Source: Deltaproteobacteria bacterium (GTDB lineage Bacteria > Desulfobacterota > JADFXK01). From it: a stretch of 36,835 nt of DNA. Below are positions 222 through 11,457 of this stretch, one piece after another (position 1 is the stretch's first letter; the number at the start of each line of letters is the position of its first letter). The stretch lies in NCBI GenBank assembly GCA_015233625.1, contig JADFXK010000004.1, positions 1 to 36,835 on the forward strand. The letters are read 5' to 3'. Position numbers and translations under genes: made by a program. The notes under the pieces are model-generated. The model saw only the letters and a list, made by a program, of their open reading frames with translations, made no database searches and was not told where the DNA came from.

Positions 222-465
222 ATGGTTCCCCTGTTCGGAAATGATGGGTAAAATTTGGGTGAAGTTAGTCTTACCACTTCTGATGGCTTTGGAGTATAGT
301 TCTACACGGTCTTTTTGCCTTGGCTAAAAGTAATTGAGGAAACTTCGGCTTCGTGGCTGACAGGACAATCGGGCCCAGGGTAGGGCGAATGTATGCCCCG
401 CCTTTTATAAACCTATGTTTACCGGACTGACAACTATTTTCAAACACAAGAAAGGAGAAAGAACG

Positions 466-1068
466 ATGAACAGACTAGCAGGTGTCATTATGGCCCTCGT
501 TGTGCTGGCGCTTCCCTCCCTCGCGTTGGCGTCCACCTGGACTATCGATCCGGTTCATTCCAATATCCAGTTCAAGATACGCCACCTGATGATCTCCAAC
601 GTCAAAGGTGTGTTCGGCAAAGTCCAGGGTGTCATCAATCTTGATGACAAGGACATTACAAAATCCAATCTGACGGTCACTATCGATACCGCTTCAATCT
701 CCACCGGGGTGGGTAAGCGCGATGAAGACCTGAGGAGCGCCAATTTTTTCGATGTGGCCAAATTCCCAACCATGACCTTTGTGTCGAAAAAAGTTATGAA
801 AAGTGCCATGGGAAAATTAAAGGTAATCGGTGACCTGACCATCCGGGGAATTGCCCGCGAGGTCGTCCTCGACGTGGAAGAGTTCTCGAATGAAATTAAA
901 GATCCCTGGGGCGGGATCAGGCGGGGTACTTCTGCTGACACGAAGATCAACCGTAGCGACTTTGGGATGACCTGGAACAAGCCGATGGAGTCCGGCGGGG
1001 TGATGATCGGGAATGACGTATTCATCACGCTGGAAGTAGAGATGGTCAAGGACCAGACGAAGAAATGA
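466..1068 (+). CDS. YceI family protein with signal peptide
   Basis: ATG at 466 preceded by aaaggag; signal peptide MNRLAGVIMALVVLALPSLALAS then TWTIDPVHSNIQFKIRHLMISNVKGVFG, a YceI signature. Confidence 0.92.
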   Translation: MNRLAGVIMALVVLALPSLALASTWTIDPVHSNIQFKIRHLMISNVKGVFGKVQGVINLDDKDITKSNLTVTIDTASISTGVGKRDEDLRSANFFDVAKFPTMTFVSKKVMKSAMGKLKVIGDLTIRGIAREVVLDVEEFSNEIKDPWGGIRRGTSADTKINRSDFGMTWNKPMESGGVMIGNDVFITLEVEMVKDQTKK

Positions 1069-1072
1069 TTGT

Positions 1073-1729
1073 CTAGATCGTTTTAAGTTTCTCTTTGGCC
1101 AATTCTTCAGCCGAACTCATAATCTCCTCAAACTCGGCTTCGGACAAACCTGCCCCCAGGGCAACCACCCTGGCGAAAGCTCGATCAATTAGGTCGCCGG
1201 GAGCATGACTATCGGTATTGATCAGGAGCCTGGCCCGATGAATTCTGGCCAGGCTCGCCACTCGGCCATTGCCCAGGCTATGTCCTCCCCGCGCAGTAAT
1301 CTCCAGATGGACCCCATTCCGGGCTGCCAATTGAACCTCTTCCGCGGTGATAAGCCCGGGATGGGCCAGGATGTCCACGCTACATTCAATGGCCGCCCGA
1401 TTTGTTCCCGGTGCCACCGGTTCGACCGGAGATTCGCCGTGGACGACCACCAGGGCGGCGCCCAATTCTCTGGCTTGCCTTGATAGTTCGGCAATCATGG
1501 CCGGAGGGACATGGGTTAGCTCTACACCAGGTATGACTCGAATATTGCAGTGGCGGTTGGCTGCCTGAGCCGCCTGGGTAATCCGGGGAATAATATGATC
1601 CAGATTGGCAGGATCTGCGTGATCGGTAATGGCCAGATACCGAATGCCCTTAACCTCCGCCCGCCGAATCAATTCCATCGGCCCGAGGACGCCGTCGCTG
1701 AAGAAACTATGTGTATGTAGATCAATCAT
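1073..1729 (-). CDS. PHP domain phosphoesterase (histidinol-phosphatase-like)
   Basis: MIDLHTHSFFSDGVLGP...AITDHAD...VIPGVELTH...DILAHPG...INTDSHAPGDL: PHP metal-binding motifs. Confidence 0.9.
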   Translation of the reverse strand: MIDLHTHSFFSDGVLGPMELIRRAEVKGIRYLAITDHADPANLDHIIPRITQAAQAANRHCNIRVIPGVELTHVPPAMIAELSRQARELGAALVVVHGESPVEPVAPGTNRAAIECSVDILAHPGLITAEEVQLAARNGVHLEITARGGHSLGNGRVASLARIHRARLLINTDSHAPGDLIDRAFARVVALGAGLSEAEFEEIMSSAEELAKEKLKTI

Positions 1730-1885
1730 GTTAGTCCCAAGGATTCGAGTAAAGACTGCACAGGAGATTGCAGGAGTGAAGTCCTGAATCAGGCAATCGG
1801 GCGCATGTCGAGATCACAGTTGGTTGAGCATATCTTTCCATGAGCCATGAGATAATTCGAGGAGGTGGGGAAGGCAGGCGGTAAA

Positions 1886-1902
1886 GACACGGTCACCCGT
1901 GG
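1886..1902 (-). terminator. Possible weak intrinsic terminator downstream of the BFN-domain gene
   Basis: Minus-strand CACGG-GTGA-CCGTG hairpin followed by TCTTT, about 25 nt after the stop. Confidence 0.3.
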
Positions 1903-1926
1903 CGACACCTCTTTATAGGTGAATTT

Positions 1927-2421
1927 TTACATCTTGTATTTCCCGAAATCTTCCGGTGACAGGCTTTCAAGTATTTCCGTCCACTTCTTAGCTTCTTCGG
2001 TCTTGATCTCTTCTTTGGCCGACATGTCAATACTTCGTGACTTCATAATCACTTGCTCCGTCACGTAGATCGGCGCGTCGGACCTCAGGGCCAGGGCTAT
2101 CGCATCGGAAGGCCGGGCGTCTATCGAGACCTCATGGCCATTCACCATAAGATAAATCGAGGCGTAAAATGTATTTTCTTTGAGGTCACAGACTTCAATC
2201 CGGGAAACATCAACCTGGAAGTAATCAAGGACATTTTTAAGTAAATCGTGGGTCATCGGCCTGGAAAACTTTATTTTTTCGAGTTCACTGGCAATGGCCG
2301 TAGCCTCCAGCAGGCCGATCCAAATGGGCACCGAAATGTCTCCCCCGTCTTCCTTTAAAATGACTATGGGACTGTTGGTAAAAGGATCTATATTTAATGC
2401 GGATACAACCATTTTGATCAT
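1927..2421 (-). CDS. Bifunctional nuclease family protein (BFN / DUF151 domain)
   Basis: MIKMVVSALNIDPFTNSPIVILKEDGGDISVPIWIGLLEATAIASELEKIKFSRPMTHDLLKNVL...SIDARPSDAIALALR; start chosen at the internal Met. Confidence 0.9.
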   Translation of the reverse strand: MIKMVVSALNIDPFTNSPIVILKEDGGDISVPIWIGLLEATAIASELEKIKFSRPMTHDLLKNVLDYFQVDVSRIEVCDLKENTFYASIYLMVNGHEVSIDARPSDAIALALRSDAPIYVTEQVIMKSRSIDMSAKEEIKTEEAKKWTEILESLSPEDFGKYKM

Positions 2422-2665
2422 TTGGACTACTCCCGTCGGCGATAGGCGTTGTTGCACTTGCTTGAAGCATACTCCGACCATTATGGCTGAGTCAACAATT
2501 TTCTAAAAAACTATTGATAACATTTCCGGGGATTGGCCTCTTGGCGGATCGGCTCTAAGTCGGTCGATTTAAAAGCCCAAGTCCACAGGACGCCAGATTT
2601 GGCGCATAGGACACAGAGGTTTTCTTGCGGTTATATAATTCGGTACCGGGCCACCGGGGTTAACT

Positions 2666-8376: not shown

Positions 8377-8620
8377 TATGATTAATCATAAGCGATTTAC
8401 CACGGCTTGCCACCTCTGGTCATGGTCATGACCATCCCTATCCGACGATCTCGCGTCACAGGCAATGGGGCAGAACATAGACTACCCCGTTGTCTTCATC
8501 TGAGAGCCGGCCGCTCCCGATGAATTCCTGTCTTTAATCTCTGATCAAATTTTACTGAATAACCCAAAAGAGATGCTCTCTGGCACCTTCAGCCTGAGAG
8601 CTGGTGAAAGGCCTTGAAAT

Positions 8621-9100
8621 ATGGACAACTTTACGAACGAAATAAACAGCACCACCGAATTGTTCAAACAGGGGTTCTCTTGAGCCCAGGCGGTGTTCGC
8701 CGGATTCGGTGAACGTTACCATCTGGATAAAGAGATCGCCTTGAAGTTGGGTCGGGGATTTGGCGCCGGGATGGGCCTGGGTCTAACTTGTGGGGCGGTC
8801 ATCGGGGCTGGCCTGGTCTTGGGGTCGGCCGGCGGGGAAATCGAGGAAAATGATCGCCAGGCCAGATACAGGTGCTATGATGCGATTAAGGACTTTATTT
8901 CTCGTTTTGAGGCCCGGTACGGGACGATCAGGTGTAATGATTTGTTAGGCGTAGACATGAGCACCGAAGAAGGGCGAAAGGAAGCCCAAGAAAAGAATCT
9001 GTTCGCCACGGTTTGTTATGAAATCGTCCAGAACTCCGCCCAGATCTTAGCTGACCTGATGCAACCAGAATCAAATGCAGCCCTTACCCGCCGGTTTTGA
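8621..9100 (+). CDS. C-GCAxxG-C-C family probable redox protein, probably a selenoprotein with in-frame TGA (8681-8683) as Sec
   Basis: ATG 8621 is in frame with TGA 8681 and with the annotated ORF 8693..9100. Read-through gives MDNFTNEINSTTELFKQGFS(U)AQAVFAGFGERYHLD...GRGFGAGMGLGLTCGAVIGAGLVLG...RCNDLLGVD...CYEIVQNSAQIL; U falls where the family has its first Cys (GFNCAQAVF-like). Confidence 0.85.
8695..8714 (+). promoter_or_regulatory. Candidate bacterial SECIS hairpin
   Basis: GTTCGCC-GGATTC-GGTGAAC: 7-bp stem with one G:U, 6-nt loop containing GG, starting 11 nt after the TGA. Confidence 0.6.
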
Positions 9101-9398: not shown

Positions 9399-10004
9399 AT
9401 GCAGGATGTGATCGACTGTCGGGGGTTTGCCTGCCCGCAACCCGTGCTTGAGACGAAGGCTCGTTTAGAGACAACCGACCTGGCCGCCTTTACCGTGATC
9501 CTGGACAATGAAGCCGCCAGAAACAATGTCAGCAGGTTCGTGATTAGTCAGGGACACAAAATTGAAGAAGAAGTAGGAGAGGGGATCTATCGACTTCGGG
9601 TGATTCGGATAGGGACCCCTGGGCGGACGACCGAATCGTCCCTAACCCCCTGTGCCGCCCCCCAGGAGCCGGTTCTGGTTATTAAGATTCCATCGGATAA
9701 AATGGGGCACGGGGACGATGAGCTGGGCGCAATCCTGTTGCGGGCTTTTGTCAAAACCATTAAGGATGTCACCCCCCGGCCCAAATGTCTGGTCATGTTC
9801 AATTCCGGGGTAAAATTGGCCGCCGTCGGTTCGGATGTCTTGGCGGCCTTGCAGGACCTGGAAAAAGCCGGCACTGAGATTCTGGTCTGCGGCACTTGCC
9901 TGGACTTTTATCAGCTAAAAACTCAGCTCCAGGCCGGCCGGGTCTCCAATATGTTTGAAATAATGTCCGCGATGGCTCAGGCTGATCGGGTAGTCAGTCC
10001 ATGA
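9399..10004 (+). CDS. yedF: Sulfurtransferase-like selenium metabolism protein YedF (TusA-like N-terminus, DsrE-like C-terminus)
   Basis: VIDCRGFACPQPVLETKARLE (TusA motif) plus VLVIKIPSDKMGHGDDELGAILLRAFVKTIKD...LVCGTCLDFYQL. Confidence 0.88.
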   Translation: MQDVIDCRGFACPQPVLETKARLETTDLAAFTVILDNEAARNNVSRFVISQGHKIEEEVGEGIYRLRVIRIGTPGRTTESSLTPCAAPQEPVLVIKIPSDKMGHGDDELGAILLRAFVKTIKDVTPRPKCLVMFNSGVKLAAVGSDVLAALQDLEKAGTEILVCGTCLDFYQLKTQLQAGRVSNMFEIMSAMAQADRVVSP

Positions 10005-11152
10005 TCTACTTTGACAACGCGGCCACCTCGTTTCCCAAGCCGCCTACCGTCATCCAGGCTATGACCGAATTTATGGGCACAACCAGCGCCAGCCCGGGCC
10101 GTTCTGGTCACCGCATGGCCCTGGAGGCTAGCCGCGTCGTGTTTGAAACCAGGGAAACCTTAGCCGAGCTGTTCAACGTCGCGGATTCAAGCCGGATTAT
10201 TTTTACGCTCAATGTCACCTGGGCTCTTAACCTGGTGTTTAACGGCCTGCTGAGACACCAAGATCATGTGGTGACCACGTCGTTGGAACATAATTCGGTC
10301 ATGCGTCCGTTGACCCGACTGGTCAAGCACCGGGGAATAGATTTGACCGTGGTTCCGGCCGGCCCTGATGGAACTGTGGATCCGGCCCAAATTGCCCTGG
10401 CTTTGACCCCACGCACCCGGTTAATTGTCATCAACCATGCCTCCAATGTCACCGGCAGTATTGCCCCAATCAGGGCCATCAGCCAGATTAAGGGGCAGGC
10501 CCTGCTGGCCGTTGACGCGGCTCAATCCGCGGGTAGTATCCCCATCGACATGAACCAGTTGGGGATTGACCTGCTGGCTTTCACTGGTCACAAGGCTTTG
10601 CTCGGTCCCACCGGTACCGGTGGAATCTGCCTGGGGCCGGGGATTAATTTGGAGCCGCTGGTCACCGGCGGCACCGGTAGCAGATCTGAAGAAGAGGACC
10701 ATCCTGATTTTTTCCCGGATTGTCTGGAGGCTGGGACGCCCAACACGATCGGCCTGGCTGGCCTGCGAGCCGGGGTTGATTTCATCCGGCACACCGGCCA
10801 GGAGAAGATCAGAGAGCATGAGCAGGCCCTGACCCGACGTCTGATGGAAGGTCTGGCCGAGATTCCAGAAGTAACGGTTCATGGCCCGGTTGATCCCGTG
10901 GCTAAGGTTCCGCTGGTGTCCATCACCGTGGCTGGTTGGCCGGTCGATGAGATTTGTCTTAGATTAGACCGTGACTTTGGGGTGGCAACTCGGGGCGGGC
11001 TGCATTGCGCTCCTCGGGCGCACCGGACCATCGAGACCTTTCCCCACGGAACGATTCGATTGTCCCTTAGTTTCTTTAACACTTTTGATGAGATCGACGT
11101 GGTTCTGGCCGCCTTGCGGCAAATCGCATCCCATCGTCAAACCTACCGGTAA
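10001..11152 (+). CDS. Class V aminotransferase, cysteine desulfurase family (selenium/sulfur-cluster type)
   Basis: MIYFDNAATSFPKPPTVIQAM...TSLEHNSVMRPL...AVDAAQSAGSIPIDM...LAFTGHKALLGPTGTGG...RGGLHCAPRAH; ATGA overlap with yedF. Confidence 0.9.
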   Translation: MIYFDNAATSFPKPPTVIQAMTEFMGTTSASPGRSGHRMALEASRVVFETRETLAELFNVADSSRIIFTLNVTWALNLVFNGLLRHQDHVVTTSLEHNSVMRPLTRLVKHRGIDLTVVPAGPDGTVDPAQIALALTPRTRLIVINHASNVTGSIAPIRAISQIKGQALLAVDAAQSAGSIPIDMNQLGIDLLAFTGHKALLGPTGTGGICLGPGINLEPLVTGGTGSRSEEEDHPDFFPDCLEAGTPNTIGLAGLRAGVDFIRHTGQEKIREHEQALTRRLMEGLAEIPEVTVHGPVDPVAKVPLVSITVAGWPVDEICLRLDRDFGVATRGGLHCAPRAHRTIETFPHGTIRLSLSFFNTFDEIDVVLAALRQIASHRQTYR

Positions 11153-11160
11153 TTCCAACC

Positions 11161-11457
11161 ATGTCTCCTACCTGCGTAGCTATCCTGGATTCAATTCATT
11201 ATATCCTCAAAGCCGAAAAAATCCTTAAGGCTAAAGAAATGCCCCATGAGATCGTCCCTGTGCCGCGGGAAATCAGTTCCGATTGCGGCATGGCCATTCT
11301 ATTCGACTGTGCCCTGCTCACGGAACTTCGTCGCATTCTGTCTGAAACCGGTATTCGGATCAGGGGAGTTTATCGGAGCCCCAGGTCGGCTCAAGATGGG
11401 GAGCGGAATGGCTCCAGCTATGTTCCTTTGATTAAGCGCCAGGACGGACTCTCCTGA
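11161..11457 (+). CDS. DUF3343 family putative Se/S carrier-like protein
   Basis: CVAILDSIHYILKAEKILKAKEMPHEIVPVPREISSDCGMAILFDC; small protein immediately downstream of yedF and the class V aminotransferase. Confidence 0.8.
   Translation: MSPTCVAILDSIHYILKAEKILKAKEMPHEIVPVPREISSDCGMAILFDCALLTELRRILSETGIRIRGVYRSPRSAQDGERNGSSYVPLIKRQDGLS

Follow-up and report, generated by a model that had tools for sequence, protein, structure and literature searches.

A probable selenoprotein of the C-GCAxxG-C-C family, with an in-frame TGA in place of the first motif cysteine, in a member of the Desulfobacterota

The gene at positions 8621–9100 of the analysed window, a stretch of 36,835 nucleotides from contig JADFXK010000004.1 of a metagenome-assembled genome (MAG) of the Desulfobacterota, most likely encodes a selenoprotein of the C-GCAxxG-C-C family, in which the UGA at codon 21 would be read as selenocysteine (Sec). 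This interpretation had been proposed from the letters of the DNA alone, and the present analysis supports it, with none of the three findings named there as refuting it in evidence: the homologues carry only Cys or TGA in the corresponding column, the genome contains tRNA-Sec and SelD, and a SECIS-like hairpin is present (Table 1).

Table 1. Features of the candidate selenoprotein locus, its neighbours, and the probable second UGA-decoding locus of the genus
Feature	Coordinates	Strand	Description and basis
Ribosome-binding-site-like stretch GGTGAAAGG	8603..8611	+	9 nt before ATG 8621; putative, from sequence
C-GCAxxG-C-C family (seleno)protein gene	8621..9100	+	159 codons plus stop, in-frame TGA at codon 21; translation with TGA = U, profile matches, start shared with both same-genus homologues
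In-frame TGA at the first motif Cys position	8681..8683	+	Probably Sec, less likely Cys; homologue column Cys 23 / TGA 9 of 32
Bacterial-SECIS-like hairpin	8686..8726	+	Apical 8-bp stem 8695-8702/8707-8714, loop GAUU 8703-8706, loop G 19 nt after TGA; fold
YedF, sulfurtransferase-like selenium metabolism protein (TusA + DsrE)	9399..10004	+	TIGR03527 equivalog, 200.8 bits, cut-off 110
Class-V aminotransferase / cysteine desulfurase family protein	10001..11152	+	TIGR01977, 445.2 bits
Putative Se/S carrier protein (PF11823, DUF3343)	11161..11457	+	PF11823, 78.9 bits, cut-off 25
selC*-type tRNA and second selB	L088 (G001:C163) 443..2487; L089 (G002:C258) 482..1651; L090 (G000:C12) contig edge, 3' part of selB* only		Downstream of Hdr-like genes

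Translation placed the ATG at 8621–8623, the TGA at codon 21, the GTG at 8693 and the terminal TGA at 9098–9100 in one frame, in agreement with the sequence-only reading. The read-through product of 159 amino acids (TGA = U) starts with MDNFTNEINSTTELFKQGFS-U-AQAVFAGFGE, and the frame contains neither a frameshift nor a second internal stop. As had been claimed, the TGA falls on the first Cys of the motif and the remaining motif cysteines are intact, namely Cys57 (TCGAVIG), Cys105 (RCND), and Cys132 (VCYE); both the read-through translation and the alignment of 32 homologues agree on this. All four conserved Cys/Sec positions are thus occupied, the second of them within GCAxxG, and their columns are conserved across homologues. 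Profile searches with the read-through product returned matches to PF09719 (93.8 bits, cut-off 27) and to TIGR01909, "C-GCAxxG-C-C family (seleno)protein" (73.8 bits, cut-off 47.4), and the region 8621–9100, read through the TGA, is a full C-GCAxxG-C-C protein. The mechanical ORF call starts only at the GTG (8693–9100, 135 amino acids), which bears out the earlier remark that the supplied track cuts off the N-terminus. A search by sequence found no solved structure of the read-through product; an AlphaFold model built from four sequences was all-helical and of low confidence (pLDDT 58, pTM 0.49). At the 3' end, a TAG near codon 150 terminates the two same-genus genes; the window gene has a sense codon instead and is about nine codons longer, ending at its TGA (9071–9100). 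This TAG was considered as an occupant of the codon-21 site in the same-genus genes, but the idea was rejected, since it is their normal terminator, at codon 151 in L037 and at the equivalent codon in the other gene.

Selenocysteine-containing members of this family are known, as the sequence-only reading had stated: C-GCAxxG-C-C selenoproteins have been published (PMC9312934, PMC13188914), among them WP_012158890.1 (PMC9312934) and the variants named "form 1" and "form 2" (PMC13188914), and the NCBI model itself bears the name "(seleno)protein". The window gene shares with the published TIGR01909 / PF09719 selenoproteins the domain, the positions of the motif cysteines, and the exchange of Sec/TGA for Cys; it differs from them in standing in a row of YedF, desulfurase, and Se/S carrier genes and in having sister species with Cys. 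The domain is also common to the DVU_1555 family C-GCAxxG-C-C protein (NF045669) and to the HUGP/GUXX-star fusion selenoprotein (NF045501), but with 47.1 bits (cut-off 103) and 53.9 bits (cut-off 325), respectively, the window protein scored far below the thresholds and is a member of neither. It is therefore a well-supported but ordinary addition to a family in which selenoproteins are already known.

Homologues were found in 34 of the 59 genomes searched, and 32 loci were aligned. The alignment to C-GCAxxG-C-C homologues, which had been suggested as a check, revealed Cys (23 loci) or TGA (9 loci) and no other residue at position 21. Besides the window gene, the TGA copies are L039, L043, L048, L050, L051, L061, L064, and L065, eight homologues within the same phylum; they are scattered on the homologue tree, and at least eight changes are needed to explain their distribution. 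Both same-genus homologues are 85–86% identical to the window gene, match it from residue 1, and have TGT at codon 21, so that a third-position change from TGT to TGA is all that separates this codon from both copies. The extended frame is not a product of chance, since these two align from the first residue and have a Cys codon at position 21, and the phylum has eight more homologues with TGA in that column. Against the two same-genus homologues, dN/dS was 0.17 and 0.21 over the full gene, and 0.08 and 0.12 when only the 20 codons upstream of the TGA were taken. Homology on both sides of the TGA had been taken as an argument against decay, and purifying selection on both sides, together with the unbroken frame, likewise speaks against it. 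The genome contains another C-GCAxxG-C-C gene (L001, G000:C222:37541-37987), with TGC (Cys) in the codon-21 column.

According to the work on bSECISearch, the apical loop of a bacterial SECIS reportedly lies 16–37 nt downstream of the UGA and has a G in its first two positions. For counting, we required at least five stacked pairs, a loop 16–37 nt after the codon, and a G among its first two nucleotides; the hairpin of the window, in which an apical stem of 8 bp closes the loop GAUU 19 nt after the TGA, follows this rule. The 55 nt from TGA 8681 fold with –22.8 kcal/mol (z = –3.63), and none of 200 shuffled sequences was as stable. The terminal TGA at 9098, tried as a second Sec codon, was rejected, as it has no hairpin and no such fold (z = –0.44). 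Rule-conforming hairpins follow seven of the nine TGA codons versus four of the 23 Cys codons (Fisher p = 0.0026, with no correction for relatedness). Three of the four Cys loci with a hairpin are closely related to TGA copies: both same-genus genes, and L041, which stands next to L043. This fits a presumed recent change from Sec to Cys in which the hairpin persisted. In the two same-genus Cys copies the fold energies are –16.7 and –15.2 kcal/mol, versus –22.8 kcal/mol for the TGA copy, and the lower stem, complete only in the latter, is lost or weakened. Because most of the hairpin is also found in these Cys homologues, it is by itself no proof of Sec. Synonymous conservation over codons 23–34, ranking 5 of 138 codon windows along the gene, was low but not uniquely so.

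The three genes that follow on the same strand (Table 1) are all linked to selenium, and their order is the same in the sister genome G001. YedF and DUF3343 proteins are predicted selenium-metabolism proteins (PMC9312934). The next best match of the desulfurase was the selenocysteine lyase SclA (NF040779, 389.3 bits), below the cut-off of 525.

The machinery for Sec insertion was recovered in part. Of the four genes that the sequence-only reading had named for a search (selA, selB, selC, and selD), selC and selD were present in the own genome (G000; MAG of 619 contigs, 67.8% complete), while SelA was not found and SelB was represented only by a 3' fragment. The tRNA-Sec gene (C362:270-363, 74.4 bits) has the anticodon UCA and G73. 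SelD, on contig C16 (L033, 327.3 bits), itself contains one in-frame TGA in the active-site stretch AAG-U-ASKIP, and SelD of the sister genome G001 (L094, G001:C516) likewise has one. The SelB fragment, at the edge of contig C12, is the only SelB piece in this 68% complete MAG, where an ordinary SelB was not found; it matches not the ordinary SelB of G001 but the second one (SelB*). G001 contains tRNA-Sec, an ordinary SelB, and the TGA-bearing SelD, and in addition a second pair of tRNA and SelB. SelA was above the cut-off in 51 of the 59 genomes searched; it was not found in the own MAG or in the incomplete sister MAGs G001 and G002, and the archaeal-type SepSecS was sought without a match. 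With completeness values of 68, 79, and 62% for the own and the two sister MAGs, the chance of missing SelA in all three is 0.32 × 0.21 × 0.38, or approximately 2.6% (about 2–3%), if the losses are independent, and shared binning problems would raise it. Incompleteness of the three MAGs may explain the missing SelA. The single-contig, 99% complete genome G039 of the same phylum (L061, L097, L098) contains a C-GCAxxG-C-C gene with TGA and an ordinary tRNA-Sec, with no match to SelA; it also has a selC*-type tRNA-Cys (anticodon GCA, U73) beside a row of genes resembling those of the Se/S carrier and YedE.

Three observations speak against Sec: all three same-genus MAGs yielded no SelA, the SelB piece of the own genome is of the SelB* type, and the closest homologues use Cys. 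They bear on a different decoding of the same codon, in which a selC* tRNA-Cys with the anticodon UCA, delivered by SelB*, would insert Cys at UGA 8681, or in which both amino acids would be inserted at the same UGA. Immediately upstream of selB*, G001 and G002 have a second, short, tRNA-Sec-like tRNA with the anticodon UCA and U73, whose acceptor arm has 8 bp and whose 4-bp T stem contains a bulged A. Contig C12 of the own genome ends inside selB* and includes only its 3' part. A selC* tRNA-Cys with selB* has been published for Syntrophobacterales and Desulfobacterales (PMC7609411). The loci of the two sister genomes match that description in U73, the UCA anticodon, the bulged A in the 4-bp T stem, and the second selB downstream; they differ in that the system is sited elsewhere in the genome than 8621–9100 and that the own genome shows only the 3' part of selB*. 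A match to a group I intron (RF00028, 69.5 bits, L090:420-665) lies on C12 about 1.6 kb from a tRNA-Val and the selB* fragment. The genus thus probably has two ways of reading UGA, and Cys would work at codon 21, because the same-genus homologues have Cys there. However, the genus also has the ordinary, G73-bearing tRNA-Sec and a SelD that itself contains a TGA, G001 has the ordinary SelB, the window gene adjoins selenium-metabolism genes, its hairpin follows the bacterial SECIS rule, and the homologues with TGA in this column belong mostly to genomes with SelA. Decoding as Cys, or as a mixture of Sec and Cys, is therefore unlikely, both for this UGA and for such genes of the genus in general.

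It is similarly improbable that a one-base error of the fragmented MAG produced the TGA, or that the gene is dying and has recently acquired a nonsense mutation there. A single third-position change relative to both same-genus copies and an assembly of 619 contigs would be compatible with it. However, of the 1377 possible single-base changes in the sister gene, 17 create a TGA and only one of these falls on codon 21, the column in which eight other homologues have TGA; the lower stem of the hairpin, which the TGA copy has, is missing or weaker in the two Cys copies; and the frame is intact and under purifying selection on both sides. A start of the real product at GTG 8693, without the first Cys, is very improbable: the frame is open from there, but 20 conserved residues precede the TGA (dN/dS about 0.1), the ribosome-binding-site-like stretch stands before 8621 with none before 8693, and the first Cys or a TGA occurs in all homologues examined.

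If codon 21 is read as Sec, as we consider most likely, SelB would deliver Sec-tRNA-Sec to the ribosome at this UGA, recruited by the hairpin that begins 2 nt downstream, and Sec would take the place of the first Cys in the four-thiol motif (Sec21, Cys57, Cys105, Cys132). Judging from the motif and the neighbouring genes, the protein probably acts in redox or selenium/sulfur handling together with the downstream YedF, desulfurase, and Se/S carrier.

The reading of 8621–9100 corrects a truncated gene call, and the window gene and its same-genus copies form a clean Cys/Sec pair inside one genus. As tRNAs that read UGA and SelB both come in two kinds in this genus, the amino acid at codon 21 is a testable question; if Cys were inserted after all, a gene with the appearance of a selenoprotein gene would be a natural target of UGA-to-Cys or dual decoding. 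The position beside YedF, a SclA-like desulfurase, and a Se/S carrier ties the uncharacterised C-GCAxxG-C-C family to selenium handling.
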